DNA from: Flavobacteriales bacterium
Lineage (GTDB): Bacteria; Bacteroidota; Bacteroidia; Flavobacteriales_D; Crocinitomicaceae
Assembly (NCBI GenBank): GCA_022361195.1
Contig: JAKSBJ010000223.1
Coordinates: 1 to 64,000 of the forward strand
Reading direction: 5' to 3'
DNA: 64,000 nucleotides
Position 1 is the first letter of the stretch. Each line of letters opens with the position of its first letter. The notes beneath the pieces were generated by a model. That model worked only from the letters and a program-made list of their open reading frames with translations, made no database searches and was not told the DNA's origin. Positions 1 to 53,366 of the stretch are shown piece after piece. The position numbers and the translations under genes were made by a program.

Positions 1-573
1 ACGATCTCCCGTTCCGGTATCACCCCATACGTCGCTCAAGATCTCTTCTCTTCTAAAAACCTTTTCAGGAATGCTCATTAAGAGTGCCAATAACTCAAAT
101 TCTTTTTTGGGTATAATGGTCTCTTTACCTTCTTGAAAAACTGAAAAACGCTCGGGATTAATACTAAGCCCAACCTCCGAGGTAGGTTCTTCATATTTGG
201 AAATTCGCTCCAACAGAACCTTTACTTTGTGCATCAGAATTTTGATTTTAACTGGCTTCACAACATAGTCGTCAGCCCCAGCTCGATACCCGGCAACTTG
301 TGAGTAATCTTCACCCCTGGCCGATAGAAAAATAATGAGGGTGTTTCGTAAAATAGCCTTCTTTCTCAACTGCTCACACACCTCAATCCCATCAATGTCT
401 GGCAACATCACATCCAATAAGATAATATGGGGACGTTTATTAATGGCTTGTTCAATCGCTGACTCCCCGTCATAAGCCTTTGAAACGCGCATTCCGGTCT
501 TTTCAAAATTGTACGCCAACATGTCCACGATGTCCTTTTCATCATCGACAATCAATATCTTTTTTCCCTCCAT
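1..573 (-). CDS. PhoB/OmpR-type response regulator, C-terminus cut by window edge
   Basis: Two-component transcription factor. The 191 visible residues start at the ATG at 573 with a receiver domain: acidic pair D10-D11, phospho-acceptor D54 in the ILLDVMLPD motif, and K106 in the VKPVK motif. A winged-helix DNA-binding domain begins near residue 130 and runs off the left edge. It is a close paralogue of the regulator at 10916-11605, sharing the RGEDYSQ(V/I)AG motif. No kinase gene lies in the window. The gene is divergent from the TonB receptor at 772, and the shared gap carries 11-bp TTAA repeats. This suggests that it, or its paralogue, is the phosphate regulator and may control itself. 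The family is clear; the phosphate role is inferred. Confidence 0.93.
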   Translation of the reverse strand, partial: MEGKKILIVDDEKDIVDMLAYNFEKTGMRVSKAYDGESAIEQAINKRPHIILLDVMLPDIDGIEVCEQLRKKAILRNTLIIFLSARGEDYSQVAGYRAGADDYVVKPVKIKILMHKVKVLLERISKYEEPTSEVGLSINPERFSVFQEGKETIIPKKEFELLALLMSIPEKVFRREEILSDVWGDTGTGDR

Positions 574-602: not shown

Positions 603-610
603 CAAAATTA
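603..610 (-). promoter_or_regulatory. Putative -7 box of the response regulator promoter
   Basis: On the minus strand this reads TAATTTTG, a match to the Bacteroidota -7 consensus TAnnTTTG. It lies 30 bp upstream of the ATG at 573. The TTAA repeat array at 633-701 begins directly upstream of it, which would allow autoregulation. Confidence 0.5.
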
Positions 611-630: not shown

Positions 631-704
631 CATTAAGGCTTTATTAATGCATAGTTAAGTTTTAAATTTTCCAATGTTAATTTAATATTAAGTCATCTTA
701 ACAT
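631..704. promoter_or_regulatory. Pho-box-like tandem 11-bp repeats
   Basis: TTAA cores start at 633, 644, 655, 677, 688 and 698, so successive cores are 11, 11, 22, 11 and 10 bp apart. The last repeat reads CTTAACAT. PhoP of Bacillus binds TTAACA-like repeats and cyanobacterial SphR binds CTTAACCT-like repeats, both with about an 11-bp period. The array sits between the divergent regulator at 573 and the TonB receptor at 772 and could act on both. Periodicity is seen directly; the identity of the binding protein is inferred. Confidence 0.65.
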
Positions 705-746
705 TTTGATAATCCTCTATTGCTTAATTGAAGAAAATCACTGACC

Positions 747-755
747 TACCTTTGC
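747..755 (+). promoter_or_regulatory. Promoter -7 box of the first TonB receptor
   Basis: TACCTTTGC matches TAnnTTTG, with a TTG at 728-730 sixteen bases upstream as a weak -33 element. Transcription should start near 761, so the in-frame TTG at 763 is an unlikely start codon and the ATG at 772 is preferred. The same 9-mer precedes the Na+/phosphate symporter at 13002, and in both cases a CTTAAC repeat lies 50 bp upstream. Confidence 0.6.
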
Positions 756-771
756 CAAAAAATTGGTAGAT

Positions 772-3699
772 ATGAAATCGATTGTTTTGTCAATGTTAAT
801 TTTTTGCTGTTCTGCAATGGTGCATGCAAACTCATTGATGGATGGTGCCGGAGACGGAACCGTTGAAGGAAAAGTCTTCAAATTGGAAAATGAACAACAA
901 CAACCATTGGGGTTTGTTTCTGTTTATGCCATTGAAGCGCAAGTTGGTACTAAAACAGATTTTGATGGTAATTACCGTCTATCTCTTCCGGCAGGAGACC
1001 ACCATATTATCTTTAGATCGGTAGGTTTGGTTGCTGACACCGTTTTGGTTCATATTACTTCTCAGGAAGTATTTAGTCAAAATATCGAGTTGAGAGATAA
1101 TAAGACCTTAAAGAAAGTTGAAGTCTTTAAGAAAAAAGACGTTGATGATCCAGGAGATGTTACTACCGCAAAAGAAACTCGTGAAGACGATAAGGTAACT
1201 ACTAAAAAAACTAAAAAACAAATTGAAGCAACTGGTTCAAGTGATTTGAGCGAAGCTGCTACTAAAATGACAGGACTTTCTACAGTTGGTTCTGTATTAT
1301 ATGTAAGAGGATTGGGGGACCGTTATAATACGGCTTACTTAAATGGACTTCCTGTTCCTTCACCAAACCCTGATTTTAGAGTTATTCCTTTAAGTACATT
1401 CCCAACTGACATTATTCGATCAGTTTCTGTATCTAAAGTAATGTCGGCTGAATTGTACGGAGATTTCTCAGGTGGTGCTTTCGATATCACAACTCGAAGC
1501 TATTATGAAAAACCAACTTTAAAAGTTTCACTTTCTACTGGAGTTAATACACAAACTACTTTCAAAAACTTTAAAACGTACAACGGAGGTAAATTTGATT
1601 ACTTTGGAATGGATGATGGAACGCGTTCTATCCCATCAGAAGTAATTGCGAATTCAAAACCTGGAGCCTATCCTGGAATTAATACTATCTTCCCAAATAG
1701 CTTATATGAATCTGTTGAAGGACAAACTACTCGTTTTAATGATAACTACAACTTCAACATTTTAAATAAAACAGCTCTTCCTAATTCAGGATTCTCAATT
1801 ACAGGTGGAAACTTCTTTCCTACTACTAAAGCAAAAGATAAATCGTCAGGAGTTGGATTCATCGCATTGTTAAATCACGATTATTCATCACGTTACTCTA
1901 ACGGATCAATCAAAAACATCAATGCTCAAAGTGAAGAAAGATTAAACTACGATTTTGAAAAGTGGAATGTGAGTACTTCTACAACAGGTTTATTAAGTCT
2001 TTATTTCAGAATTAATCCTGAGCACAACATCACCGTTAATTCATTGTATGTAAATACATCAAATGATGAAACTCGTGAAACCTGGGGATCACATTTTGAT
2101 TATGTAGATAAAATTTACTCACGAAGATTAACTTATGTACAAAGCTTCCTAAACTCAAATCAAATTATTGGAACGCATAAGTTCTTAAACCATAAAGATG
2201 ATAAGAACTTTAGCCGTTTAATTGTTGATTGGAGAGGATCATACAGTTTAACTGGAAGCCAGGAGCCTGACAGAAGACAATTTGTTGCTTTTTACAGCGA
2301 AGGTGAAGAAAATGATACTGAGCATTATACGCTTAACTTCATTGACAGAAATGAAAACCACCGTTTCTTTAGTCAATTAAAAGAAACTGAAATTGCTGCT
2401 AAAGGAAATATCAAATTTGTTTTGAAATACAATGAGGAGAAAAACAAATATGGTTCGGTAAAAGCAGAAGAGATCATTAGTATGAATGTTGGAGTTGATT
2501 ACAAGAACAAAGTAAGAGATTTTGACTACAAACAATTTAACTATGTAGTGAACCAGGTAGCACAAGACAATGTAGATAACATTAATATTTATGACATTGA
2601 TGCTTACTTAAACTCGGAGGTTCATGATGAAGGTGGTTTCTACATTCAGGAAGTAGCTAACTTTGGTTCTTCTTATCGTGCAGACTTGTTGGTGAGTAGC
2701 TTCTATGGTAACTTAAAAATGAAATTTGGGAAATTGGAAATTATTCCTGGAGTTCGTTACGAAAGCGCTTATCAGTCGGTAACTAACCGTAACCAACAAT
2801 CGCCAAGTGATATTGACCGTACTGTAGTAGAACAAGGAAGTTTATTACCAAGCTTCATCTCTAAATTACAAATGGGAGAAAAGAACTTAATGCGTTTTGT
2901 ATTTAGTAAAACGCTAACTCGTCCTAAATTCAACGAATTGGCTCCATTCCAGTACACTTTATATTTCGCTGGTGCTAAAGCTCAAGGAAATCCTGAATTA
3001 CAAAACGGATCTAACTACAACTTTGATGTACGTTACGAGCGTTATCCTAAACCAGGAGAGATGATCACTGTTGGAGCATTCTATAAATATTTAGATTCTC
3101 CTATCGAGCAAACACAATTAGCAACTGCCAGTGGACAGTTAATGAGTTTTGCTAATGCAGATGTTGCTCATGCTGCTGGAATTGAGTTTGAATATGTACG
3201 TAGCTTATCATTCTTGGTAAGTAAGGCAAAAAGAGATAGCTCTGCTTTAAAATACTTCGGATTAGGTTTCAATGCAGCTTATATGTTTACACAAGTTAGA
3301 ATTGATACTACACAAGGTGGAACAATCAACACGAATAACATTCGTCCACTAGAAGGAGCATCACCTTACTTAATCAACTTTGATATTCGTTACGAAAGAG
3401 ATTTTAAAGAAGCAAAGAAAAAATACTTAGTAGCTCTTGCTTATAATGTATTTGGTCCAAGACTTTTCTCAGTGGGTAGTAACGGAATTGGAGATCAATA
3501 TGCTCTTCCAGTAAACACTTTAAACTTTATTGCCAAAGTTGAGTTCAATAAAAAACTAAGCATTGGTTTAAAAGCTAAGAACTTGCTTAACCCAAATATC
3601 AAAATTGTACAAGAAGATCGTGTAAATGACGGTTACCTCAACGTAAGCGAATTCCGAAGAGGTATTGATTTAAGCTTCTCGGTTGGGTACAGCTTCTAA
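772..3699 (+). CDS. TonB-dependent outer-membrane receptor 1, putative phosphate-stress uptake
   Basis: Energy-coupled outer-membrane transporter of 975 residues. A signal peptide (about residues 1-22) is followed by a carboxypeptidase-regulatory-like beta-sandwich (about 33-115), a charged linker rich in Lys and Asp, a plug domain with the YVRGLGDRY motif, and a beta-barrel ending in an aromatic-rich strand with terminal Phe. The ATG at 772 is chosen because the TTG at 763 would lie at the predicted transcript start. A second receptor of the same subfamily lies at 5229, and a lipoprotein follows each one. Tandem Pho-like boxes upstream suggest induction by phosphate starvation, so the substrate may be an organophosphate or a phosphate chelate. 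The substrate is not shown by the sequence. Confidence 0.93.
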   Translation: MKSIVLSMLIFCCSAMVHANSLMDGAGDGTVEGKVFKLENEQQQPLGFVSVYAIEAQVGTKTDFDGNYRLSLPAGDHHIIFRSVGLVADTVLVHITSQEVFSQNIELRDNKTLKKVEVFKKKDVDDPGDVTTAKETREDDKVTTKKTKKQIEATGSSDLSEAATKMTGLSTVGSVLYVRGLGDRYNTAYLNGLPVPSPNPDFRVIPLSTFPTDIIRSVSVSKVMSAELYGDFSGGAFDITTRSYYEKPTLKVSLSTGVNTQTTFKNFKTYNGGKFDYFGMDDGTRSIPSEVIANSKPGAYPGINTIFPNSLYESVEGQTTRFNDNYNFNILNKTALPNSGFSITGGNFFPTTKAKDKSSGVGFIALLNHDYSSRYSNGSIKNINAQSEERLNYDFEKWNVSTSTTGLLSLYFRINPEHNITVNSLYVNTSNDETRETWGSHFDYVDKIYSRRLTYVQSFLNSNQIIGTHKFLNHKDDKNFSRLIVDWRGSYSLTGSQEPDRRQFVAFYSEGEENDTEHYTLNFIDRNENHRFFSQLKETEIAAKGNIKFVLKYNEEKNKYGSVKAEEIISMNVGVDYKNKVRDFDYKQFNYVVNQVAQDNVDNINIYDIDAYLNSEVHDEGGFYIQEVANFGSSYRADLLVSSFYGNLKMKFGKLEIIPGVRYESAYQSVTNRNQQSPSDIDRTVVEQGSLLPSFISKLQMGEKNLMRFVFSKTLTRPKFNELAPFQYTLYFAGAKAQGNPELQNGSNYNFDVRYERYPKPGEMITVGAFYKYLDSPIEQTQLATASGQLMSFANADVAHAAGIEFEYVRSLSFLVSKAKRDSSALKYFGLGFNAAYMFTQVRIDTTQGGTINTNNIRPLEGASPYLINFDIRYERDFKEAKKKYLVALAYNVFGPRLFSVGSNGIGDQYALPVNTLNFIAKVEFNKKLSIGLKAKNLLNPNIKIVQEDRVNDGYLNVSEFRRGIDLSFSVGYSF

Positions 3700-3726
3700 A
3701 ACAGACAATACATACACATTATATAT

Positions 3727-3748
3727 AAGGGCCTTCGGGCCCTTTTTT
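3727..3748 (+). terminator. Rho-independent terminator after receptor 1
   Basis: A 7-bp stem (AAGGGCC / GGCCCTT) with a TTCG tetraloop is followed by a T run. It separates receptor 1 from the lipoprotein that follows, which has its own promoter. Confidence 0.85.
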
Positions 3749-3763
3749 CATTTATGAACTCAA

Positions 3764-3853
3764 TGTTAAGTTGAGTTTTAAATTTTTTAATGTACTTCTA
3801 ACAAACATATAACCCCAGCGTAATTGTCCCTTAATCCCTCCGCTAGATATTTG
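3764..3853 (+). promoter_or_regulatory. Pho-box-like array and promoter of lipoprotein 1
   Basis: Cores of the form nTAA fall at 3766 (TTAAG), 3787, 3798, 3809, 3820 and 3831 (CTTAATCC), with an 11-bp period from 3787 onward. The last repeat ends just before GATATTTG (3846-3853), a near match to the -7 box with G for the first T. The same arrangement occurs upstream of lipoprotein 2: four repeats, then 6 bp, then GATATTTG. The predicted leader is about 39 nt. Confidence 0.6.
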
Positions 3854-3897
3854 TACCAACAAAAATTAATTCTAAATAATTAAACGAAACAAAAAAA

Positions 3898-5127
3898 ATG
3901 AAAACTTCAATATTTTCAATAATGCTGTTGGCTGGAGGTTTGGCATTTGTCAATACTTCATGTAAAAAAGGTTGTACTGATCCTGATGCATTAAACTACG
4001 ATGCTGATGCAAAGAAGGACGATGAGTCATGCGTTTTCCCACCGGTTGACACAACTGATGAGAATATCGTTAATGTTACTTCTAACATTACTTCTAACAC
4101 AACTTGGGAAACTGGTAAGTGTTATGTATTAACTACTCGTATTGCTGTTACTTCTGGAGCTACTTTAACTATTGAGCCAGGTGTAATCGTAAAAGGTGAA
4201 GCTGGTTCAGGAGCTAACGCTACTGCTTTAATCATCGCTCAAGGAGCTAAGATCATGGCTGAAGGAACTGCTACTCAACCTATCATCTTCACTTCTGTTG
4301 CTGATAAAATTCAACCAGGACAAATTGCTTCACCAAACTTATCTACTGACTTAGATGGTCTTTGGGGAGGTCTTATCATCTTAGGAAAAGCTCCTATCTC
4401 TGCTGATGCTGCTTCAGTTCAGATCGAAGGTATTCCACCATCAGATGCTAACGGACTTTACGGAGGATCAGAAGCTGCTGATAACTCAGGTGTTCTTAAA
4501 TATGTATCTATCCGTCACGGTGGAGCTAACATCGGAGAAGGAAACGAAATCAACGGTCTTACTTTAGGAGGTGTTGGTTCTGGAACTACTATCTCTTACG
4601 TAGAGGTTATCGCTAACCAAGATGATGGAATCGAGTTCTTCGGTGGAACTGTTGACGTATCTAACGCAGTTGTTTGGAACGCTGGTGACGATGCTTTAGA
4701 CACTGACCAATCATGGGCTGGTACTTGTTCAAACTTCATCGTTATCAACCCAGGTGACGAATGTATGGAGTTAGATGGTGCTGAAGGTGCAATGGAAGCT
4801 ACTCACACTTTCGTAAACGGATCAATGTCTGCTGATAAAGGTGATGGATTGGTTGATTTGGATGATAACACTATCTGTGATCTTTCAAACATCTACTTCT
4901 TCAACTTATCTGCTGGACAAGATTTCGATCTTAACCCTGCTGGATTGTCTTTAGCTACTTGTCAAGCTACAATCCCTGACGGAGAAGCTGTAACTGATTA
5001 CTTCACTGACGGAACTGATGCTGCTGTTACTACTGTAGCTGCTGGAGCCAACACTGTAGGTGTAGATGTATCTGCATTCAACACTTGGTCTTGGGCTGCT
5101 ATCGACGGAGCTTTATCAGACTTCTAA
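3898..5127 (+). CDS. Beta-helix surface lipoprotein 1 with a Cys-rich module
   Basis: A 409-residue lipoprotein. The signal peptide ends at a lipobox with C22. Next comes a short acidic module with a GCTDP start and an ESC end, a Cys-rich unit common in marine Bacteroidota surface proteins. The remainder is parallel-beta-helix-like (GATLTIEPG, AQGAKIMAEG, GVGSGTTI, DDGIEFFGG repeats). Close homologues are often labelled multidrug transporter in databases, but nothing here resembles a transporter. It lies between two TonB receptors and is probably their surface-exposed partner. Codon use is strongly skewed to ATC, AAC, TTC, GCT and ACT, unlike its neighbours, which points to very high expression. 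Exact function is unknown. Confidence 0.88.
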   Translation: MKTSIFSIMLLAGGLAFVNTSCKKGCTDPDALNYDADAKKDDESCVFPPVDTTDENIVNVTSNITSNTTWETGKCYVLTTRIAVTSGATLTIEPGVIVKGEAGSGANATALIIAQGAKIMAEGTATQPIIFTSVADKIQPGQIASPNLSTDLDGLWGGLIILGKAPISADAASVQIEGIPPSDANGLYGGSEAADNSGVLKYVSIRHGGANIGEGNEINGLTLGGVGSGTTISYVEVIANQDDGIEFFGGTVDVSNAVVWNAGDDALDTDQSWAGTCSNFIVINPGDECMELDGAEGAMEATHTFVNGSMSADKGDGLVDLDDNTICDLSNIYFFNLSAGQDFDLNPAGLSLATCQATIPDGEAVTDYFTDGTDAAVTTVAAGANTVGVDVSAFNTWSWAAIDGALSDF

Positions 5128-5156
5128 GAAGAGACAAAATATTAAATGAACGAGGA

Positions 5157-5194
5157 AACTCGCAGGTTGACAAATTGGATTCCTGCGAGTTTTT
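5157..5194 (+). terminator. Terminator or attenuator between lipoprotein 1 and receptor 2
   Basis: A perfect 10-bp stem (AACTCGCAGG / CCTGCGAGTT) with a 15-nt loop is followed by T residues. No clear promoter lies between it and the next ATG at 5229, so receptor 2 may depend on read-through. That would give much lipoprotein and little receptor from one transcript. Confidence 0.75.
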
Positions 5195-5228
5195 CAGCTA
5201 ATAAAAGCTACTTAATAGTAATAAAACG

Positions 5229-8138
5229 ATGAATATGAAGTCTATACTAAATCTATGCATGAAGCTCTTTTTTGTGCTTCTAAGTTGTTCTTCAACCTTC
5301 GCTCAAGACCAGGATGGATATATTCGAGGAACTGTTTTTGACGGAACTTCGGGAGAGACAATCCCAATGGCGAAAGTTTATGTAAGCGGAACTCAATACA
5401 GAGCTAAAACGGATCTGGATGGAAAAATGAACATCAAAATTCCGGCCGGTACTTACGAACTTAAGATTGCCGCTTTGTTGAAAGACACAATGACCATTAC
5501 AGGGGTTGAAGTAAAGGCAGGAGAAGCAACTGTGCTAGATGATATCGTTATGACCGATAGTAGCAACACCTTTGACGTCGTTATTGTCGACGCAGAACGC
5601 ATCACCAACACAGAAAATGCAATGCTAAACATCCGTAGGATGTCTTCTCATCCTATTGATGCAATTACATCGGAGCAATTTAGAAAAACTGGTGACCCAA
5701 CAGCTGCAGGAGCCCTTAAAAGAGTTCCGGGAGTTTCCCTTGCAGGTGGAAAATACATCTATGTAAGAGGATTGGGTGACCGCTATAACAAAACCACTTT
5801 AAACGGAACGGATATTCCAGGTTTGGATCCGGACAGAAACTCCATTCAAATGGACATCTTCCCTACTTCTGTTTTAGGAAATATTGTGGTTCATAAATCC
5901 TTTGTAGCCGAACTTCCTGCCGATTTCACGGGAGGAGTGGTTGACATAGGTTTAAAAAGTTTCCCAGATAAAAGAAACAGAGGAATTTCAGTTGGATTGG
6001 GATACAATCCTTCTTTCCACTTTCAAAGTGATTATTTAACTTATGATGGTGGTAAACTGGATTTTTTAGGTTTTGACGACGGAACACGTAAAATTCCAGT
6101 TGAAACTTATATTCCTTTCTTCTCTGAAGCTGTAAGTGATCCTAACGGACAAGACGGACAGCGTTACAAACAAATCCTCGAAAGCTTTAATCCTACTTTG
6201 GCTGCCTACGAAACACGCAGTTTAATGGACTTTAGTATAGGAGGTTCTTTTGGGAATCAAATCAAGAAAAAGAAAGTTACTCTCGGTTACAATACCGTAA
6301 TTTCATATAAAAACAGTACTGACTTTTACCGTGAAGCTCAATTCAGCCGATATGGTTTATCGGGTGATGCCAGCGAAACAGAAATGCAGGAACGTGAATT
6401 GCAAGTTGGTAAATATGGTGCCAACAATGTTTTATTAAGTGGTTTGGTTGGTTTTGCCATCAAAACACAAAAAACAAAAATGTCATTAAACGTTCTTCAT
6501 TTACAAAATGGTGAATCAAAAGCCGGTATTTTCGATTATTCAAATGCTGATCAGGGAGCTATTTTTTACGGATTCCAACACAACCTGGAGTACAGCCAAC
6601 GATCGTTGACAAATGTTATGCTTAATGCTAAACATCGTTTTGCTGAAACAGGATGGGAATTTGAATGGAAAGTTTCTCCTACACTCTCTCTAATCACTGA
6701 CCCGGATATCCGATTTACTCGTTACGAAAATCGTGATGGAGATTTCTGGATTTCGACAGAAACAGGATTCCCTGAGCGAATTTGGCGTGAATTACAAGAA
6801 CAAAGCATTAACGGTGTTGCACATGCTACCAAAGAATTTAAATTCGCTAAACGTAAAGCGAAATTCAAATTTGGTGGAGGTCATACTTATAAGCAAAGAG
6901 ATTTTGTTGTTCGAAACTTTGCTTTAAACATCAGAAACGTTCCTTTAACTGGAGATCCTAATGAATTGTTTTTACCAGAAAATATTTGGCCATTACATGG
7001 AGATCCAACTTCGGGAACAACGTACGAAGCTTCGTTCCTACCATCTAACCCTAATCAATTTAGCGCTAACATTCAAAACACAGCAGCTTATGTTGCTACT
7101 GAAATTAGCCCACTTAAAAAAGTAAGAGCGATTATTGGGGTGAGAGTTGAAAACTATGTTCAACGTTACACTGGTCAGGATCAATTAGGTGTAAATGTTT
7201 TGGATAATGACAAAGTATTAAATGATTTGGGGATTTTCCCATCAGCTAACTTTGTTTATACTATTAGTGATATTCAAAACTTACGCTTTTCTTACGGAAA
7301 AACAGTTGCTCGACCTTCGTTCAAAGAGCTATCGTATGCTGAGATTTACGATCCAATTACCGGACGTATCTTCGTTGGTGGTTTATTCCGTGATGCCAAT
7401 GACCTGGCAGGAGTTGAATACTGGGATGGAAACTTGACCAAAACCGATATTCATAACTTTGATGTGCGTTGGGAAATATTCCCATCAAGAGGACAAACAA
7501 TCTCTTTTAGTGCATTCTATAAAAAGTTCTTTAACCCAATTGAAATTGTTCAATTTGCTACCCAAGCTGGTTCTTACCAACCAAGAAACGTAGGAGATGG
7601 ACAAGTAATTGGAGGAGAAATTGAGATTCGCCAAAGTCTTAAAGTCTTAGCAAAATCATTAGAGGACTTTACCTTTAACTTGAATGTGACTTTAACTGAA
7701 TCAAGAATTGAGTTTAGCCAAACAGAATACGATAGCCGTGTTGAGAATGCCAGGGAAGGACAAACAATTGGTCAGTACAGAGACATGGCCGGTCAGGCTC
7801 CTTATGTCATCAACAGTGGATTGTCATACAACGGTGGTGAAAAAGGATTCTGGCAGGGATTAGAAGCGGGTATCTTCTATAACGTTCAAGGACCAACTTT
7901 ACAATTTGTAGGTATCGTTGACCGACCTGATATTTACTCGGTACCTTTCCATAGTTTGAACTTCAATGCGAACAAAACTTTTGGAAAAGACGGTAAGTTC
8001 AGACTTGGATTTAAAGTATCCAATATCTTAAACGATGATAAAGAAGCCGTATTTAAATCATTCCAGGCTTCTGATCAATACTTCTCAAGATTATCTCCTG
8101 GAACTTCAATGAGCTTAAAGTTCAGCATGAATTTCTAA
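5229..8138 (+). CDS. TonB-dependent outer-membrane receptor 2
   Basis: A 969-residue receptor of the same subfamily as receptor 1. It has a signal peptide (about residues 1-25, cleaved after TFA-Q), a carboxypeptidase-regulatory-like domain (about 30-110), a plug with the identical YVRGLGDRYN motif, and a barrel whose final strand ends in FSMNF. The plug loops differ clearly from receptor 1 (LDPDRNSIQMDIFP against PNPDFRVIPLSTFP), so the two may accept different ligands. The gene follows lipoprotein 1 by about 100 bp with a hairpin between and no obvious promoter. It is followed by strong terminators and then lipoprotein 2. An alternative start is the ATG two codons in. Confidence 0.92.
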   Translation: MNMKSILNLCMKLFFVLLSCSSTFAQDQDGYIRGTVFDGTSGETIPMAKVYVSGTQYRAKTDLDGKMNIKIPAGTYELKIAALLKDTMTITGVEVKAGEATVLDDIVMTDSSNTFDVVIVDAERITNTENAMLNIRRMSSHPIDAITSEQFRKTGDPTAAGALKRVPGVSLAGGKYIYVRGLGDRYNKTTLNGTDIPGLDPDRNSIQMDIFPTSVLGNIVVHKSFVAELPADFTGGVVDIGLKSFPDKRNRGISVGLGYNPSFHFQSDYLTYDGGKLDFLGFDDGTRKIPVETYIPFFSEAVSDPNGQDGQRYKQILESFNPTLAAYETRSLMDFSIGGSFGNQIKKKKVTLGYNTVISYKNSTDFYREAQFSRYGLSGDASETEMQERELQVGKYGANNVLLSGLVGFAIKTQKTKMSLNVLHLQNGESKAGIFDYSNADQGAIFYGFQHNLEYSQRSLTNVMLNAKHRFAETGWEFEWKVSPTLSLITDPDIRFTRYENRDGDFWISTETGFPERIWRELQEQSINGVAHATKEFKFAKRKAKFKFGGGHTYKQRDFVVRNFALNIRNVPLTGDPNELFLPENIWPLHGDPTSGTTYEASFLPSNPNQFSANIQNTAAYVATEISPLKKVRAIIGVRVENYVQRYTGQDQLGVNVLDNDKVLNDLGIFPSANFVYTISDIQNLRFSYGKTVARPSFKELSYAEIYDPITGRIFVGGLFRDANDLAGVEYWDGNLTKTDIHNFDVRWEIFPSRGQTISFSAFYKKFFNPIEIVQFATQAGSYQPRNVGDGQVIGGEIEIRQSLKVLAKSLEDFTFNLNVTLTESRIEFSQTEYDSRVENAREGQTIGQYRDMAGQAPYVINSGLSYNGGEKGFWQGLEAGIFYNVQGPTLQFVGIVDRPDIYSVPFHSLNFNANKTFGKDGKFRLGFKVSNILNDDKEAVFKSFQASDQYFSRLSPGTSMSLKFSMNF

Positions 8139-8141
8139 GAT

Positions 8142-8193
8142 AACTATCTGATAAGATAGTTAAAACTCATGGGTATTACCCATGAGTTTTTTT
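8142..8193 (+). terminator. Tandem hairpins terminating receptor 2
   Basis: A 7-bp hairpin (AACTATC / GATAGTT, 8142-8161) is followed by a perfect 12-bp stem (8162-8173 with 8179-8190), loop TATTA, and a run of seven or more T. The second hairpin is a textbook intrinsic terminator. Confidence 0.88.
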
Positions 8194-8227
8194 GTGCCAT
8201 AAATCAGCTTTTTTTACCCCCGATTAA

Positions 8228-8342
8228 TATTAAGTTTTTGTTAAGCTCGATTCTACAACTGTAAATCAGTAGTTTACGATTCAAGATTAATAAACAATAA
8301 ATGTTGCAATAACTTTTGCTTAACATAGAGAGCGGATATTTG
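8228..8342 (+). promoter_or_regulatory. Pho-box-like repeats and promoter of lipoprotein 2
   Basis: TTAAG repeats at 8230 and 8241 are 11 bp apart. A second block has nTAA cores at 8287, 8297, 8309 and 8320, the last reading CTTAACAT. The promoter is GATATTTG at 8335-8342, with TTTG at 8315-8318 as a possible -33. The block from 8285 to 8342 matches the spacing seen at 3796-3853 upstream of lipoprotein 1: repeats at 15, 26, about 37 and 48 bp before the -7 box. The predicted leader is about 36 nt. Confidence 0.6.
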
Positions 8343-8377
8343 CAACGAGTAAATAAAAAATTAATCTTTCTAAGAAA

Positions 8378-9727
8378 ATGAAATCAATAAAGAAAACGTT
8401 GCCGCTTTTATTAATAGCTGTGGGTGTAGGTTTTACTTTTACTGCTTGTAAGAAAAAAGGATGTACTGATCCTAACGCAACAAACTTTGATCCTGATGCG
8501 AAAAAAGATGATGGAACATGTATGGTTCCTACTGCAACTTGGTATGAAGATGTTACATACAACGGAGAAGCTTATCGTCAGGTAACAGGAACAATTACCG
8601 AAGACCAAACAATGGATGCTTCACACAACTGGTTATTATCAGGAGGAGTTTTTGTTGGTAACGGAGCTATTTTAACAATTGAAGCTGGAACTAACGTTTA
8701 TGCTGCGGATGATGGAACAACTGCTTTTCTTTCAGTTCTTCAGGGAGGAAAAATCGAAGCTTGTGGTACTGCTACTGAGCCTATCGTATTTACTCCAGTA
8801 AAAGATAATCCAGCTCCTGGTGACTGGGGAGGAATTATCATTAACGGATATGCTCCTATTAACACGGGGACAACTGCTGAAGGAGAAGGTGGAACTGGAA
8901 CTTACGGAGGAACTGATGCTGCTGATAATTCAGGGTCACTTTGTTACGTAAGAGTTGAGTACGCTGGTAAAATTTTAGGAACGGACAATGAGTTGAATGG
9001 ATTCTCATTTAACGGAGTTGGTTCTGGAACTACCCTTCACCACTTACAAGCTCACTTAGGATCGGATGACGGTTTTGAGTTCTTTGGTGGAACAGCTTCT
9101 TTAAGATATGCTGTATCAACAGGAAACCAGGATGATTCTTTTGACTGGACTCACGGTTGGACTGGAAACGGACAGTTCTGGGTAGTTCAACAATCTACCG
9201 GAGGTGGAGACAGAGGAATTGAAGGTGATAACAACGGAGATAACAATGCTGCTACTCCAATGACAAACCCTACACTTTCTAATCTTACACTTATTGGTGC
9301 TGATGATGGAGATGCATCTAATCAAGGAATGAAATTAAGAGAAGGAATGATGGCTAACATCTACAACGCTGTTGTAACTGGATTCCCTAAAAGAGGAGTA
9401 CAAGTTGAGCATGATGTTACAATCACTAATCTTGAGAATGATGACTTAACAGTAAACAACTCAATCGTTGATAATGTTGATTCATTTGTTTACACAACAT
9501 CTGCAGGAGCTGATGCAATGCCTACTAATACTTTTGATTTAGCCGCTTATAACAACCAAATTGCTACAGATGGTTCATTGGTAGGATTCTTAAGTGGATT
9601 TACTGGTGTTAGCACAACTGGAGCATTTGATCCTACAACTTTAGGTTCGTGGTTTGAAGCTGCAACTTACATTGGTGCAGTTGACGGTTCAAACAACTGG
9701 ACAACTGGATGGACAGTTGGATTGTAA
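8378..9727 (+). CDS. Beta-helix surface lipoprotein 2 with a Cys-rich module
   Basis: A 449-residue paralogue of lipoprotein 1. The lipobox FTAC places the lipidated Cys at residue 24. It is followed by the same short module (GCTDPNATNFDPD to DGTC) and then beta-helix repeats such as GAILTIEAG, GDWGGIIING, YGGTDAADNSG, GVGSGTTL and DDGFEFFGG. The C-terminal third diverges from lipoprotein 1. It completes a duplicated receptor-lipoprotein unit. The anchor and shared regulation suggest capture of a phosphorus-containing ligand, or a structural partner to the receptor. No catalytic motif is visible. Confidence 0.88.
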   Translation: MKSIKKTLPLLLIAVGVGFTFTACKKKGCTDPNATNFDPDAKKDDGTCMVPTATWYEDVTYNGEAYRQVTGTITEDQTMDASHNWLLSGGVFVGNGAILTIEAGTNVYAADDGTTAFLSVLQGGKIEACGTATEPIVFTPVKDNPAPGDWGGIIINGYAPINTGTTAEGEGGTGTYGGTDAADNSGSLCYVRVEYAGKILGTDNELNGFSFNGVGSGTTLHHLQAHLGSDDGFEFFGGTASLRYAVSTGNQDDSFDWTHGWTGNGQFWVVQQSTGGGDRGIEGDNNGDNNAATPMTNPTLSNLTLIGADDGDASNQGMKLREGMMANIYNAVVTGFPKRGVQVEHDVTITNLENDDLTVNNSIVDNVDSFVYTTSAGADAMPTNTFDLAAYNNQIATDGSLVGFLSGFTGVSTTGAFDPTTLGSWFEAATYIGAVDGSNNWTTGWTVGL

Positions 9728-9759
9728 GAAACAATTTTTTAGACAATAAGATAGAGAGG

Positions 9760-9788
9760 TCCCTCTGCTTCGGCAGGGGGATTTTTTT
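9760..9788 (+). terminator. Terminator of lipoprotein 2
   Basis: A 9-bp stem (TCCCTCTGC / GCAGGGGGA, one G-T pair) with a TTCG loop is followed by seven T. The T run overlaps the stop codon of the convergent ctaA. Confidence 0.85.
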
Positions 9789-10827
9789 ATGCCTTCTTAG
9801 CTCTAAAACTATAAATAGAAATAAGAACAGCGCTCAATAACACAACTGCCCCTAGTTGGTGAACAACTCCCAGGAATATCGGTGTCAAATTAACAATGGT
9901 CAATACCCCTAAGGTAAACTGAATAATGAGGGCAATGAACAAAAACAAAAGACCTTTTCGTTGAAGAGAGGTCAAAGACATCTTAAGTCCTTTTAAGAAA
10001 AGAAAGATAACCATTACAGCCACTATAACTGCAATCCAACGGTGCATAAACTGAACCACAAAAGGTGATTCTAAAAAGCTAATAAATCCGCTTTTACCAA
10101 TAGCCTCTTCTATGGCATATGGTACCCAATCATCCCCCATTTTAGGGAAAGTAGGATAAAACTTCCCGGCTTTTAATCCAGCCACAAAGGCTCCATAGAT
10201 AATTTGTAAACTCACCACTCCAAACAAAGTATAGAGTAATTTTCTCACCAAACTATCTCCTTCTGTCTTCTCCGCCCGCTCGGGATACAACAAGCCCATA
10301 GCAGTCCATAACAAATAACCAAATAATAAAAGTGCTGTACTCAAATGAAGGGCCAATCGATAATGACTCACATCTGGCCTATCAACCAAACCACTCTTCA
10401 CCATATACCAACCAATAAAGCCTTGCAGACCTCCTAAAAAGAAAATGATAATGAGCCTTAATCGTAACTTTTTATCCTTTAGTTTACCCCGAATTAAGAA
10501 AAAAAGGAAAGGAACTAAAAACACAACTCCTATTACCCTACCAAGCAAACGGTGATAAAATTCAGGCCAATAAATTTGCTTAAACTCTTCAAGATTAAAA
10601 TCGTAATTCCGTTTAATATACTCGGGAGAGGTTTTATACTGTTCAAATTCTTGAATCCATTGTTGGTCTGACATAGGAGGAAGCCAACCTGTAACGGGTT
10701 TCCAACTGACCATGGATAAACCAGAATGAGACAAACGAGTATAACCACCTAAAATGACCATACTTACTACCAAAAAGGCACCTATAAGTAACCAATAAGC
10801 AACGGATTTTGAGACCTTATCATTCAT
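9787..10827 (-). CDS. ctaA: Heme A synthase (COX15/CtaA)
   Basis: Integral membrane enzyme that oxidises the C8 methyl of heme O to a formyl group, giving heme A for aa3-type cytochrome oxidase. About eight hydrophobic segments are visible, with the four conserved His motifs: EFYHRLLG, SHYRLALHL, FMHRWIA and VVHQLG. The N-terminal GGYTRLSHSGLSM motif is typical of the COX15 group. An ATG at 10848 would add seven residues, but a -7-like box (TAAATTTG, minus strand, 10843-10836) overlaps that extension, so the ATG at 10827 is preferred. The partner heme O synthase is not in the window. Confidence 0.93.
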   Translation of the reverse strand: MNDKVSKSVAYWLLIGAFLVVSMVILGGYTRLSHSGLSMVSWKPVTGWLPPMSDQQWIQEFEQYKTSPEYIKRNYDFNLEEFKQIYWPEFYHRLLGRVIGVVFLVPFLFFLIRGKLKDKKLRLRLIIIFFLGGLQGFIGWYMVKSGLVDRPDVSHYRLALHLSTALLLFGYLLWTAMGLLYPERAEKTEGDSLVRKLLYTLFGVVSLQIIYGAFVAGLKAGKFYPTFPKMGDDWVPYAIEEAIGKSGFISFLESPFVVQFMHRWIAVIVAVMVIFLFLKGLKMSLTSLQRKGLLFLFIALIIQFTLGVLTIVNLTPIFLGVVHQLGAVVLLSAVLISIYSFRAKKA

Positions 10828-10915
10828 AAGAAGCACAAATTTAGCCATTATTCTGGCACGACTAAATCACTTCTTAAACCAATTGATTGAGGAAAATGTT
10901 TGGTTGGTTGATAAA

Positions 10916-11605
10916 TTACTCCTCGAATTTATACCCAACTCCTTTTACCGTTTTAATGAATCGTTCACCAATTTTCTCCCGCAACTTACGGATATGAACA
11001 TCAATGGTACGATCACCTACAATAACCTCAACACCCCATACGCGACTCATAATTTCATCACGGTGAAACACTTTGCCAGGTTTAGACATGAGTAGGGACA
11101 ACAATTCAAACTCTTTTCGTGGAAGGTAAACTTCTTTACCTCTCAGGTAAACCAAATACCGTTCTTGATCTATTTCGAGTTCTTTTTCAACAGCCTTTTC
11201 TCCTTGTTCAGAAGCAGCTTTACCACCTCCACTTTCCTGTCTTCTCAATATTGCAGAAATACGGCTAATCAACAATTTTGGTTTAACCGGCTTGGTGATG
11301 TAATCATCGGCTCCAGCTTCAAAACCGGCAATTTGTGAATAATCCTCCCCACGAGCGGTAAGGAAACAAATCATGGTGCCTTTAAGCTCCGGAATATTCT
11401 TGAGCATTTCACACGTCTCAATTCCATCCATTTCTGGCATCATCACATCTAACAAAATGAGGTCGGGATTGCTTTCGGCTGCGATTTCAACACCGCGTTT
11501 TCCATTCTCGGCTTCTAATACAATGTAGCCTTCTTTCTCCAAATTATATTTAACGAGAAGCCGAATGTCCGGTTCGTCGTCAATGATCAAAATTGTCTTC
11601 TTCAT
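10916..11605 (-). CDS. PhoB-like response regulator
   Basis: A 229-residue OmpR/PhoB-family transcription factor. The receiver domain has acidic D9-D10, phospho-acceptor D53 (LLDVMMPEMD) and K105 (TKPVK). The winged-helix domain (about 135-229) contains the PRKEFELL and RTIDVHIRKLR motifs typical of the PhoB/KdpE group. It starts 37 bp after the aquaglyceroporin stop, so it may be co-transcribed with arsC and that gene. It is paralogous to the truncated regulator at 1-573. Which of the two binds the TTAA repeats cannot be told from sequence. No sensor kinase is adjacent. Confidence 0.93.
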   Translation of the reverse strand: MKKTILIIDDEPDIRLLVKYNLEKEGYIVLEAENGKRGVEIAAESNPDLILLDVMMPEMDGIETCEMLKNIPELKGTMICFLTARGEDYSQIAGFEAGADDYITKPVKPKLLISRISAILRRQESGGGKAASEQGEKAVEKELEIDQERYLVYLRGKEVYLPRKEFELLSLLMSKPGKVFHRDEIMSRVWGVEVIVGDRTIDVHIRKLREKIGERFIKTVKGVGYKFEE

Positions 11606-11642
11606 CTAGAGATAAAAATAAGGAAAAGATTGCTCTTTACGA

Positions 11643-12383
11643 TTAAGAAAACCGAAAAATTCTGGAACAGATTGCAGCAAGTACCGCTCCTAAAAATGGT
11701 GCTGCCACATAAACGGTTAACCATCCGTATTGAGGAAGGTCAAATGCCGTTCCTTGCCATCCACTCAAAAATGAAAATAAACGAGGAGCAAAATCACGCG
11801 CAGGATTAATACCACATTGAGTATATGGAGCAATGAGAATTATTAAAATTCCCACCAACACACCAATTAAAATCGGATGAAGTCTCTCCGATCCCAGCTT
11901 AACTTTGTCCAACGAAAAAATGAATAAAATCAAAACAAACGTTCCTCCTCCTTCCAATAAAAAAGCTCCAAAAGTTGAAAAACCAAATAAAGCTTTATTA
12001 GCAGGATTGGGATAAAATTCCCCAAAAATCATGGCTGTTTGTTCGGTCAAATTATTTCCCTCTTGTAAAACAATAGCATTTGAAAAAATCAAATACACCA
12101 AAACCGCCGCCAAAAATGCTCCGACAAATTGCGCCGGAAGGTAGATGAAGAATTGACGAAAGGTGATTTTACCACGAAACAAAAAAGCTAAACTAACAGC
12201 CGGATTCAAGTGACTGTGGGACCATTTTTGAGAAGCATAAATTCCCAAACTAACTCCAATGGCCCAAATTGCAGCAACCGCATACAAATTTAGGGCATTG
12301 TATAAAACCGCAACGGCAACCGATGAGGTTCCAATGGCTACCAAAACAAAAGTTCCTATTACTTCTCCTAAAAAAGAGCGCAT
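11643..12383 (-). CDS. Aquaglyceroporin, probably an arsenite channel
   Basis: A 246-residue MIP-family channel with six membrane helices and both NPA boxes, LNPAVSL and INPARDFAPR. The Asp after the second NPA (NPARD) is the mark of aquaglyceroporins, which pass small uncharged solutes such as glycerol and As(OH)3. The start is 3 bp from the arsC stop, so the two form an operon. In Sinorhizobium an aquaglyceroporin (AqpS) replaces the ArsB pump next to ArsC and lets arsenite leave passively. The same role is inferred here. A glycerol facilitator is the alternative, but no glycerol gene is nearby. Confidence 0.85.
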   Translation of the reverse strand: MRSFLGEVIGTFVLVAIGTSSVAVAVLYNALNLYAVAAIWAIGVSLGIYASQKWSHSHLNPAVSLAFLFRGKITFRQFFIYLPAQFVGAFLAAVLVYLIFSNAIVLQEGNNLTEQTAMIFGEFYPNPANKALFGFSTFGAFLLEGGGTFVLILFIFSLDKVKLGSERLHPILIGVLVGILIILIAPYTQCGINPARDFAPRLFSFLSGWQGTAFDLPQYGWLTVYVAAPFLGAVLAAICSRIFRFS

Positions 12384-12386
12384 CTC

Positions 12387-12800
12387 TTACAAATTCGCTT
12401 CAACAAAGTCTGAACAAAACTGTTCTATTTCGCGAATAGTAGCTCTAAAAGCCACCGCTATCTCCTCCTCGGTTCCTTCAACTTTTGATGGATCACTAAA
12501 GTTTTGATGCATTTTTTTAGCGGTTGATGGAAAAACTGGACAACGCTCATTGGCATGATCACAAACCGTAATCACAAAGTCAAAATTAACGTCCTCATAT
12601 TCTGAAACGAGGTTAGAAGTATGATGCGAGATATCCAAACCGTATTCGGCTAAATATTTAACTGCATTTGGATTTAAACCATGTGTTTCAACCCCAGCAC
12701 TCCAAATCTGTGCTCGTTCTTGTGCAAACTTTTCCAAAAAGGCATGAGCCATTTGACTTCGACAGGAGTTTCCCGTACACAATACCAGTATTTTTTTCAT
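12387..12800 (-). CDS. arsC: Arsenate reductase, thioredoxin-coupled (LMW-PTP fold)
   Basis: Cytosolic enzyme of 137 residues that reduces arsenate to arsenite. The P-loop CTGNSCRSQ holds catalytic C8, and C80 and C87 sit in VCDHANERCP. This matches the Cys10-Cys82-Cys89 relay of the S. aureus pI258 ArsC and excludes an ordinary tyrosine phosphatase. It is the first gene of an operon with the aquaglyceroporin and is divergent from the Na+/phosphate symporter, the likely entry route for arsenate. A -7 box (TAATTTTG, minus strand, 12827-12820) lies 19 bp upstream of the ATG. No ArsR gene is visible. Confidence 0.93.
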   Translation of the reverse strand: MKKILVLCTGNSCRSQMAHAFLEKFAQERAQIWSAGVETHGLNPNAVKYLAEYGLDISHHTSNLVSEYEDVNFDFVITVCDHANERCPVFPSTAKKMHQNFSDPSKVEGTEEEIAVAFRATIREIEQFCSDFVEANL

Positions 12801-12819
12801 TTTAAGAAATTATCTATCG

Positions 12820-12827
12820 CAAAATTA
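12820..12827 (-). promoter_or_regulatory. Putative arsC promoter -7 box
   Basis: TAATTTTG on the minus strand fits TAnnTTTG. A TTAA lies just upstream at 12831-12834. The predicted leader is about 13 nt. Confidence 0.45.
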
Positions 12828-12950
12828 CGATTAAAGTAAATATAAGCCATCATTTTTTTCTTATTTACTCATTTTTCGTCTCCTTCAAGAACTCAAAACT
12901 ACTGAAACCTCCCATTTTTAGTAACATTCAGAACTATTTTCCCAACATCA

Positions 12951-13010
12951 ACTTAACGTAAGTTTAATATAAAAAAACGATTAACAACATCATAATTAAG
13001 CTACCTTTGC
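12951..13010 (+). promoter_or_regulatory. Pho-box-like repeats and promoter of the Na+/phosphate symporter
   Basis: TTAA cores lie at 12953 (CTTAACGT) and 12964, 11 bp apart, with further TTAA at 12981 and 12996. The -7 box is TACCTTTGC at 13002-13010, identical to that of TonB receptor 1. In both promoters the C of the CTTAAC repeat is exactly 50 bp before the first T of the box. A symporter of phosphate is the expected member of a Pho regulon, so this site supports reading the arrays as Pho boxes. Confidence 0.6.
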
Positions 13011-13033: not shown

Positions 13034-15475
13034 ATGCTTAAAAAGATCGGGATTTTTACTGCCCTCCTTTTTTCATTTTCTGTTCTTGCCACAGAAGATA
13101 TTACAAGTCCAATAGATTCTTTGTCAGAATCTGTTGAGAGCCAATCAAGAGTTGAATCTGAAGTACTCCTCGAAGGAGTTTCTTTTTCATTTGAAAATGA
13201 CAAAGACACCAACACGCTGGTTCCGTTTGAATATGGAAGTTTAGAAATAAGTTGGAAGGGAATTTCAGAATCGTATCCTCATAAGGCTATTCGTTACCGT
13301 GAAATTGGAACTAAAAAATGGAGTTCCAAATCCTTTGAGCATACTGACTCTATGCTGGTTTTGGAAGGCTTAACCGAAAACTTACTTTGGGAATATCAAT
13401 TGGGAAGTGGAAGCAGTAAAAAGAACATTGAGTATTCAGAAACCATTCACCATTTTAATACCATTAGTTACTCTATTTTCTCTGGAAATAATTCAGCCAA
13501 AGGAAAAACGGAAGGGGTTAAAATCAGCTGGGCTATTGCACCGGGAAAGATTTCTCAAATTTTAGAGGTATACCCTAAAGCAACTTATATTTTAAAGTAC
13601 AACACAAAAATTGGTGCCGATCAGCATAAGAATGACAGCACAATGTCACATTGGGAAAAAGTTAAGGCTATTCCAATTATGAATACCGTTTCCCATGAAA
13701 TTAAGGAGCTCACAGGAGGTGAAAAATACGTTTACAAAGTTGGTTTAGATTTAGGAGATCAGATTATTTGGTCGAAAAAAGGAAAGTTTGAAACAGAACG
13801 TGCCTGGGGACTTTTTAAAACCCTTTTCTTAATTGGAGCTTTAGGTTTATTCATTTACGGTATGAAAGTAATGAGTGAAGGTTTGCAACAGGCAGCTGGA
13901 TCGAGATTAAGAAACATGCTGGGAAAGATTACCTCTAACCGTTTTAAAGGGGTTATTACAGGATTTGGAATTACTTCTGTCGTTCAGTCCTCCTCCGTCA
14001 CCACGGTAATGGTGGTAAGTTTTGTAAATGCTGGACTAATGACCCTAAAACAGTCCGTTGGAGTAATGATGGGAGCCAATATTGGAACCACCATGACGGC
14101 CTGGCTAATTTTAGTTTTTGGATTTAAGGTTGACATTGCAGCTTACGCCTTTATTTTAATGGCTTTTGGAGCTCCTCTCTTATTTATTAGTCGTGGAAAA
14201 GCTAAGGCTTGGGCCAATGTAATTATTGGTTTCTGTCTTTTGTTTATGGGGTTAGCAGCATTAAAAGATGCAGTTCCAACGCTTAGTGCAGATTCGGCTT
14301 TAGTACAGTTTTTTGTTGAATACAAAAACTCTGGTTTCCTCGGAACCTTGATGTTTGTAGGATTGGGAACCTTAGTTACAGTAATTATTCAATCCTCATC
14401 AGCAGCGATGGCTTTAACTATGACAATGGTTGCAGGAGGTGTACTTCCGTTTGAAGTTGCAGCAGCCATGATTTTAGGAGAGAACATTGGTACAACGATT
14501 ACAGCTCAATTAGCCGCTTTGATTGGTAATGTTCATGCAAAAAGAGCGGCTCGAATCCATGCTTTCTTCAACTTAATTGGAGTTTGTTGGGCAGTTATTG
14601 CTTTCCACTTCTTCTTGGATGGGATTGCTTATTTCATGGAGAAAAATCCGTTTAAAGATCCAGAGGCAGCCAATCTAGGTATTGCTATCTTCCATACTAC
14701 CTTCAATATTGCCAACGTAATTCTATTGATTTGGTTTGTTCCAAGATTAGTTTCTATGGCCGAAAAGAGTGTTCGTTCACGCGGATCGGCAGATGAAGAG
14801 TTTAAATTGGACTACATTGGAACCGGGATGATGGGAACGCCTGATTTATCAATTCTTGAAGCTAAAAAAGAGATCGCCAAGTTTGGTAAACTAACCACCC
14901 GAATGTCTGGCTTTACCCAAAAGCTATTGACCGAACAAAATGTAAAAGCCAAAAACAAACTACGATCTAAAATCTCCAAATACGAGGAGATTACTGACCG
15001 GGTAGAGATTGAGGTTGCCAATTATTTAGCCAAAGTATCCGAAGGAGAAATGTCTGAAGAAACGGCAAGACGCGTTCGTGCAATGAACTCTATTGTAAAT
15101 GATTTGGAGCGAATTGGGGATGTTTTCTATCAAATGTCTAAAGAGATCGAACGAAAAGACGAAAGAAAGATTTATTTCTTACCTGAACAACGTTCGAGCA
15201 TGATGGAGATGTTTGGTTTAGTTGATAAGTCTTTTGAAATTATGGTGGCTAATCTTGAGGCTGATTGGGGTGGAGTATCCATTAACGAAGCGCTAGAAGC
15301 TGAAAGAAACATCAACTTTAAACGCGATCAAATGCGTAAAGAGCATCTTGAAAACCTCAACAAAAAAGGATTCAACATGCAATCGGGAATGGTTTTCAAT
15401 AACCTCTTCTCATCTTGCGAGAAAATTGGAGATCACATTATCAATGTATCGGAAGCTATCGTAGGAGAGATTTAA
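13034..15475 (+). CDS. Na+/phosphate symporter with periplasmic FnIII-like domain and PhoU-like tail
   Basis: An 813-residue transporter of the NptA/type II Na-Pi family that imports inorganic phosphate with sodium. The signal peptide is at residues 1-20. Two fibronectin-III-like beta domains (about 40-255) precede the membrane part. The inverted transporter repeats carry the QSSSVTT (about 317) and QSSSAAM (about 452) signatures. A cytoplasmic helical tail (about 610-813) resembles PhoU. Family members without the extension are usually near 540 residues. The ATG at 13034 is used because an in-frame TTG at 13007 lies inside the promoter box. Tandem TTAA repeats upstream suggest phosphate control. 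The role of the extracytoplasmic domain is unknown. Confidence 0.92.
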   Translation: MLKKIGIFTALLFSFSVLATEDITSPIDSLSESVESQSRVESEVLLEGVSFSFENDKDTNTLVPFEYGSLEISWKGISESYPHKAIRYREIGTKKWSSKSFEHTDSMLVLEGLTENLLWEYQLGSGSSKKNIEYSETIHHFNTISYSIFSGNNSAKGKTEGVKISWAIAPGKISQILEVYPKATYILKYNTKIGADQHKNDSTMSHWEKVKAIPIMNTVSHEIKELTGGEKYVYKVGLDLGDQIIWSKKGKFETERAWGLFKTLFLIGALGLFIYGMKVMSEGLQQAAGSRLRNMLGKITSNRFKGVITGFGITSVVQSSSVTTVMVVSFVNAGLMTLKQSVGVMMGANIGTTMTAWLILVFGFKVDIAAYAFILMAFGAPLLFISRGKAKAWANVIIGFCLLFMGLAALKDAVPTLSADSALVQFFVEYKNSGFLGTLMFVGLGTLVTVIIQSSSAAMALTMTMVAGGVLPFEVAAAMILGENIGTTITAQLAALIGNVHAKRAARIHAFFNLIGVCWAVIAFHFFLDGIAYFMEKNPFKDPEAANLGIAIFHTTFNIANVILLIWFVPRLVSMAEKSVRSRGSADEEFKLDYIGTGMMGTPDLSILEAKKEIAKFGKLTTRMSGFTQKLLTEQNVKAKNKLRSKISKYEEITDRVEIEVANYLAKVSEGEMSEETARRVRAMNSIVNDLERIGDVFYQMSKEIERKDERKIYFLPEQRSSMMEMFGLVDKSFEIMVANLEADWGGVSINEALEAERNINFKRDQMRKEHLENLNKKGFNMQSGMVFNNLFSSCEKIGDHIINVSEAIVGEI

Positions 15476-29967: not shown

Positions 29968-29968
29968 T

Positions 29969-53246: not shown

Positions 53247-53297
53247 TTCTCTGTGTTTTTTTTTAAACTATGGATTAATAAATTGTTAAAATCAAAT

Positions 53298-53327
53298 CAA
53301 AACTAGACTGAATAATTTAAACAACAA
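53298..53327 (-). promoter_or_regulatory. Promoter of the GEVED surface protein
   Basis: On the minus strand TTG (53327-53325), 19 bp, then TAGTTTTG (53305-53298). The predicted leader is about 45 nt. Confidence 0.6.
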
Positions 53328-53366
53328 TCAATAATTCGATGAACTGCATTTTTTAATCGACATATG

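Follow-up and report, generated by a model that had tools for sequence, protein, structure and literature searches.

Gene order and TTAA repeats at the left end of the contig

We analyzed the first 64 kb (hereafter, the window) of contig JAKSBJ010000223.1, from the 5.4-Mb draft genome of a Flavobacteriales bacterium (GCA_022361195.1). From its left end the window encodes PhoB1, TBDT1, LP1, TBDT2, LP2, CtaA, RR2, a MIP channel, ArsC and NptA, with PhoB1, CtaA, RR2, the MIP channel and the thioredoxin-type ArsC on the minus strand. Four promoters among these genes contain repeats with a TTAA core, which are treated here as putative Pho boxes, that is, operators of a PhoB-type regulator acting when inorganic phosphate (Pi) is scarce. 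The genes in question, including two TonB-dependent receptors (TBDT) and two lipoproteins (LP), are as follows.

1–573, minus strand: PhoB1, PhoB-like response regulator (Pfam Response_reg and Trans_reg_C), C-terminus lost at the contig start; placed by the tree apart from PhoB genes adjoining PhoR
772–3699, plus strand: TBDT1, TonB-dependent receptor with CarboxypepD_reg and plug domains (Pfam); 55–61% orthologs in five genomes of the family
3898–5127, plus strand: LP1, predicted beta-helix lipoprotein with lipobox TSC and a GCTDP motif; 36% identity to LP2, 62% ortholog in the LP1-TBDT2 unit of locus L042
5229–8138, plus strand: TBDT2, TonB-dependent receptor (Pfam), partner of LP1 by the LP1-TBDT2 order in L042
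8378–9727, plus strand: LP2, beta-helix lipoprotein (AlphaFold), natural partner of TBDT1, downstream of which it lies in relatives
10916–11605, minus strand: RR2, canonical PhoB-type response regulator (best NCBIfam model NF053854; tree)
11643–12800, minus strand: MIP channel and ArsC, an arsenate reductase of thioredoxin type, both in line with RR2 (Pfam, NCBIfam)
13034–15475, plus strand: NptA, Na+/Pi symporter with a C-terminal PhoU domain (Pfam Na_Pi_cotrans and PhoU; NF037997 above cut-off)

The original prediction had described TTAA-core direct repeats in four promoters, and the words it quoted are all present, with CTTAACAT at 697 and 8319, CTTAACGT at 12952 and CTTAATCC at 3830. The symporter it placed behind one of these promoters is NptA, preceded by boxes at 12941–12970. 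The four promoters were also recovered as the four best matrix sites of the window (see below), but the stated 11-bp period fails at 698 and at 3766–3831. The 11-bp grid holds for the TTAA words at 633, 644, 655, 677 and 688, with the one at 698 off the grid; those at 3766, 3778, 3787 and 3831 are not 11 bp apart, and the better dyad in that promoter is CTTAACATTGAGTTCATAA, on the minus strand at 3752–3770. Over the four intergenic regions, five pairs of TTAA are spaced by 11 bp, against 0–2 pairs for each other spacing from 5 to 23 bp.

An 11-bp direct repeat at phosphate and receptor/lipoprotein promoters

A motif was learned exclusively from other genomes, with a training set of 65 promoters comprising those of TBDT1, LP, NptA and PhoB1 orthologs together with named Bacteroidota LP homologs. 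The search used zero-or-one-occurrence-per-sequence expectation maximization (ZOOPS-EM) on both strands, with 12 dinucleotide shuffles as controls. The de novo motif, CTTAACATTnACTTAACAT, is an 11-bp direct repeat with a log-likelihood (LL) of 176, versus 82–99 in the shuffles; 24 syntenic promoters alone yielded an LL of 159, versus 65–73. When the window (approximately 128,000 positions) was scanned with the resulting matrix, each of the four promoters held one of the four highest-scoring sites, at 674(-), 8227(-), 3752(-) and 12952(+), with 19.3, 18.5, 16.2 and 15.4 bits, respectively, and the fifth-ranked site (14.5 bits) was intragenic. Minus-strand CTTAAY repeats are the strongest sites at TBDT1, LP1 and LP2. 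The matrix scan detected no site upstream of TBDT2 (5128–5228, best 3.8 bits), so that four promoters serve five genes. The predicted Pho boxes and the -7 elements, which are of the Bacteroidota type (pattern TAnnTTTG), are listed below.

603–610, minus strand: -7 element TAATTTTG of the PhoB1 promoter
630–648 (11.5 bits) and 641–659 (10.8 bits), minus strand: two overlapping weaker Pho boxes facing PhoB1 (matrix scan)
674–692, minus strand: main Pho box CTTAATATTAAATTAACAT in the operator between the divergent PhoB1 and TBDT1 genes, with the window's highest score (19.3 bits)
697–715, plus strand: Pho box CTTAACATTTTGATAATCC facing TBDT1, 12.2 bits, at -50 to -32 relative to the -7 element, a position shared with the NptA box
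747–754, plus strand: -7 element TACCTTTG of TBDT1
3752–3770, minus strand: Pho box CTTAACATTGAGTTCATAA before LP1, 16.2 bits
3819–3837, plus strand: weak Pho box CGTAATTGTCCCTTAATCC (7.9 bits), adjoining the -7 element of LP1
3846–3853, plus strand: -7 element GATATTTG of LP1
8227–8245, minus strand: Pho box CTTAACAAAAACTTAATAT before LP2, 18.5 bits
8308–8326, plus strand: Pho box AATAACTTTTGCTTAACAT (13.7 bits), adjoining the -7 element of LP2 and placed first or second by matrices built on Pi-transporter promoters
8335–8342, plus strand: -7 element GATATTTG of LP2
12941–12959 (13.6 bits) and 12952–12970 (CTTAACGTAAGTTTAATAT, 15.4 bits), plus strand: two overlapping NptA Pho boxes (matrix scan)
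13002–13009, plus strand: -7 element TACCTTTG of NptA

The placement of these boxes is conserved. Measured from the -7 element, the main TBDT1 box occupies -73 to -55 in the window as well as in seven relatives (one of which has it at -72 to -54), and the start of the NptA box falls between -50 and -48 in the window and in four relatives. Since TBDT1 also has a plus-strand copy at -50 to -32, the divergent operator contains RTTAAG-N4-CTTAAY. Boxes at -82 to -64 and at -49 to -31 (the latter being 641–659) precede the -7 element of PhoB1 itself, which suggests that PhoB1 may be autoregulated. On the ArsC-MIP-RR2 side no box was found within 110 bp of the -7 element, the nearest being 114–143 bp away and facing NptA, and for this reason we do not claim these genes as Pho targets.

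Promoters of Pi transporters and of receptor/lipoprotein genes identify each other. A matrix built from five NptA/PstS promoters that had not been found by the motif placed LP2, NptA, PhoB1|TBDT1 and LP1 within the top five of the window, and the reciprocal matrix, from receptor/lipoprotein promoters, scored PstS at 21 bits and DUF47-PiT at 20–24 bits. This mutual recognition supports in silico the proposal that the receptor/lipoprotein genes form a phosphorus-acquisition system under putative PhoB control. CTTAAYN6TTAAYAT, a pattern devised with the sites already in view, matches three places in the entire 5.4-Mb genome, all of them within these promoters; in five relatives, six of its nine matches lie at Pi-transporter or PhoB/TBDT1 promoters.

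Because looser dyads were not enriched at 11 bp, a strict pattern, CTTAACATN3CTTAACAT, was adopted for the order as a whole. It occurs 17 times in 299 genomes, while its reversed control does not occur at all. Thirteen of these sites are at Pi transporters, the Pi-selective porin OprP or phoB/phoBR loci: three between OprP and NptA, three between OprP and DUF47-PiT, one between DUF47-PiT and a DUF2490 gene, two at PhoB|LP loci, and four directly behind PhoB-PhoR, where they precede a transporter-like gene without a Pfam match. The remaining four accompany a TonB receptor, a Lamin-Tail-Domain protein, a GEVED-like protein and a phage-like gene. Kinship partly remains in this sample (the 17 sites represent 10 genera, and the subset of 13 represents six), and strict sites also occur where a single PhoB accompanies its PhoR. 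Two hallmarks of Pho boxes were thus found, namely direct repeats with an 11-bp period and a location ahead of phoB and of genes for Pi transport. Of all operators, the most regular is that at 7947–8201 of locus L176, where four overlapping boxes in exact 11-bp steps precede a pstS gene beside PhoBR-TBDT-LP.

Regulators, receptor/lipoprotein units and neighboring genes

Both PhoB-like regulators that had been noted in the region (1–573 and 10916–11605) were recognized with Pfam and NCBIfam. The best NCBIfam model for RR2 is the Bacteroidetes PhoB model NF053854, at 215.6 bits and below its curated cut-off of 270, and the truncated PhoB1 scores 149.8 bits against the same model, also below that cut-off. 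In the tree, RR2 groups with PhoB genes adjoining PhoR, while PhoB1 stands across a 100/100 branch, as part of a diverged paralog clade present in several genomes of the family and lacking an adjacent kinase there. This grouping makes RR2 the likelier PhoB, with PhoB1 a possible second one. The PhoR ortholog of the same genome (53%) is unlinked, on contig C318 (49415–50449), behind gldE/gldD-like genes. A PhoR-like kinase behind gldE/gldD-like genes and away from phoB was seen in six genomes of the family. In locus L042 an additional response regulator (10461–11132) lies between TBDT1 and LP1; it looks degenerate and has a very long branch in the tree.

The original prediction had paired each receptor with the lipoprotein following it (TBDT1 with LP1, TBDT2 with LP2), a pairing that gene order in relatives does not support. 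There, LP2 is downstream of TBDT1, from which PhoB1 (or the sole PhoB) diverges, and LP1-TBDT2 is a separate unit in L042. As this LP1-TBDT2 cassette has been inserted between TBDT1 and LP2 in the window, the genes regroup as TBDT1+LP2 and LP1+TBDT2. More broadly, a TonB receptor adjoins the lipoprotein in most of 80 loci, including Bacteroides, Poribacteria and Gammaproteobacteria, and PhoB adjoins TBDT-LP in many Bacteroidota. In another family of the order (L188, L189 and L222) a single cluster contains PhoB, a MORN-type protein, a CarboxypepD protein, LP, TBDT and NptA. The AlphaFold model of LP2 (pLDDT 87) consists almost entirely of beta strands; its best PDB fold matches are beta-helix enzymes, all weak, and a PDB sequence search returned no match. 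We found no SusCD/PusCD membership: TBDT2 reached 23 bits against TIGR04056 (cut-off 368), TBDT1 did not match this model, and neither LP1 nor LP2 matched any Pfam family.

Fifteen gammaproteobacterial LP homologs have an E. coli-type Pho box upstream (mean best match 10.9 of 14, versus 9.05 for other genes of the same loci, p = 6e-8). No clear box was found at the Bacteroides and Poribacteria LP homologs.

ArsC and the MIP channel (11643–12800), divergent from NptA, are likely an arsenate-detoxification pair beside arsenate's would-be entry transporter. L041, L042 and L043 likewise have MIP genes close to NptA, and in L043 NptA is followed by a methyltransferase gene that may be ArsM-like. 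A phage-collection search with ArsC gave nothing informative. Elsewhere in the window, large secreted proteins at 28939–31870, 46628–50500, 51198–55986 and 59899–62316 display repeated adhesin-like domains and apparent C-terminal sorting domains, and one of them adjoins a PorP/SprF-like gene.

A predicted Pho regulon and its relation to known systems

Taken as a whole, the evidence makes it very probable, in our view, that the four promoters carry Pho boxes through which phosphorylated PhoB would co-activate both receptor/lipoprotein units and NptA when Pi is scarce. We infer binding, the phosphate response of this organism and the substrate from sequence and gene context. The predicted operator would consist of head-to-tail 11-bp repeats with the consensus CTTAAC-N5-CTTAAC, bound most likely by RR2 and possibly also by the PhoB1 paralog. 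With its plus-strand copy just upstream of TAnnTTTG, at approximately 50 to 32 bp (NptA, TBDT1) or 27 to 9 bp (LP1, LP2), a bound dimer could recruit RNA polymerase, and copies on the opposite strand may form a two-way operator between PhoB1 and TBDT1. The outer-membrane units TBDT1+LP2 and LP1+TBDT2 and the inner-membrane NptA would be switched on jointly. The surface beta-helix lipoprotein would probably capture or help process a phosphorus compound, the receptor would import this compound or the freed phosphate, and NptA would move Pi into the cell.

Several observations weigh against this interpretation. Many training promoters are orthologs of the window promoters, and the shared ancestry of some of them inflates the motif score; recurrence at unrelated Pi genes is independent of such kinship. 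When distant Bacteroidota LP promoters were used by themselves, the motif obtained was an unrelated one of low complexity, and we therefore do not claim the box for every LP homolog. Loose repeats are not enriched genome-wide over the reversed control (for CTTAAYN2-9CTTAAY, the 11-bp share in the window genome is 4 of 28), a control that is poor for loose repeats because TTAA and AATT backgrounds differ. Homology to the Flavobacterium johnsoniae system discussed below was judged by published description and gene order (PMC8115612). Finally, the phoA gene of the window genome has no box, with none turning up at this gene across three genomes, and pstS was looked for in the window genome without success (no PF12849 match, in a search that identified one in 13 of 14 control genomes). 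The window genome may therefore have a small regulon and may rely on NptA for Pi. The expectation that a matrix built from the repeats would hit known phosphate genes held in relatives for NptA, DUF47-PiT and PstS, but not for phosphatases in general; in a relative, CTTAATAGAATCTTAAC lies about 95–111 bp ahead of the start of one purple-acid-phosphatase-like gene.

The receptor/lipoprotein units could instead serve carbohydrate or metal uptake, with a regulator merely common to NptA. Beta-helix lipoproteins often bind glycans, the fold weakly resembles polysaccharide lyases and alginate epimerases, and glycan binding has also been suggested by Lidbury et al. (PMC8115612). We nonetheless consider this unlikely, given that the matching F. 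johnsoniae lipoproteins and receptors are tightly induced when Pi is depleted but not when N or Fe is limiting (PMC8115612), that Caulobacter ElpS is specific to Pi starvation and linked to phosphatase activity (PMC2996285), and that the gammaproteobacterial homologs have Pho boxes. Quite unlikely, too, is that these are OmpR/PhoB-family sites answering a non-phosphate signal, as would be the case if PhoB1 sensed redox, arsenate or another cue and shared targets with NptA. The separate, kinase-free PhoB1 clade, the presence of ArsC and the MIP channel between RR2 and NptA, and the noted resemblance of the Riemerella PhoP motif to that of ArcA (PMC9603813) would fit such a signal, whereas the strict sites at Pi transporters, OprP and phoB/phoBR across the order, also with a single PhoB and its PhoR, the four tiled copies at PstS and the distance of any box from the ArsC-side -7 element argue for phosphate. 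Chance repeats in AT-rich intergenic DNA, where TTAA is common and looser repeats are not enriched genome-wide, are already refuted for practical purposes by the top four ranks under an outside matrix, the 17 versus 0 count and the conserved -7 spacing.

Returning to PhoB control, the gene system is known in kind, since the phoBR locus of F. johnsoniae (PUSIV, Fjoh_0542-0546) has been described as encoding OprP, PhoR, PhoB, a TBDT and lipoprotein FII, with Fjoh_0545 (TBDT) and Fjoh_0546 (FII) induced by log2 8.0 and 9.9 upon Pi depletion (PMC8115612). As in PUSIV, the window and its relatives have PhoB next to a TonB receptor, with a lipoprotein of pectin-lyase fold after the receptor, and OprP, part of PUSIV, adjoins NptA in relatives of the window genome. 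The window differs in its unlinked PhoR, duplicated PhoB, inserted LP1-TBDT2 cassette and linked NptA and ArsC-MIP genes. The main text of that report describes no operator (neither "Pho box" nor "motif"; PMC8115612). LP1 and LP2 can also be likened, by their descriptions, to Caulobacter ElpS, a surface lipoprotein produced only under Pi starvation (PMC2996285) and called a relative of FI-FIII (PMC8115612), with release dependent on the type II secretion system being an ElpS feature.

Bacteroidota are abundant in Pi-limited soils and waters, and a search of non-subscription literature yielded no Pho box or other phosphate-response operator for them. A written consensus would make the Pho regulon predictable in thousands of genomes and give a function class to receptor/lipoprotein pairs otherwise annotated as unknown. 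Within the same order, PhoP of Riemerella anatipestifer was mapped by DNA affinity purification sequencing (DAP-seq) to 583 peaks with a TTTAACA core, tested by electrophoretic mobility shift assay (EMSA) and found to be autoregulated. It shares the TTAACA core, and one target tested is a TonB receptor; it differs in its very widespread sites and its framing as a virulence regulator, and the portion of the report seen describes no repeat architecture at Pi genes (PMC9603813).

The predicted element would be a PhoB-type Pho box with SphR-like letters. The SphR box of cyanobacteria, CTTAACCT, has 8-bp repeats with a 3-bp linker (PMC1906773), and shares the CTTAAC core letters and the 11-bp head-to-tail period; unlike it, the element in this other phylum does not require a third repeat, has the extended consensus CTTAACAT, occurs on both strands and is paired with a TAnnTTTG -7 element. 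The E. coli PhoB box, built on CTGTCAT in 11-bp units (PMC4415409), similarly comprises two direct repeat units of the PhoB-family type, for which binding is predicted here, but has other letters, and most of the boxes described here sit 50 to 30 bp ahead of the -7 element instead of directly taking the place of a -35 element. We hold it evenly balanced whether CTTAAC-N5-CTTAAC is a general, as yet undescribed Pho box of Flavobacteriales (perhaps of most Bacteroidota), and whether the TonB receptor and beta-helix lipoprotein form a cross-phylum module for phosphorus scavenging in which PhoB control has persisted through a change in the letters of the box between CTGTCAT in Gammaproteobacteria and CTTAAC in Bacteroidota.

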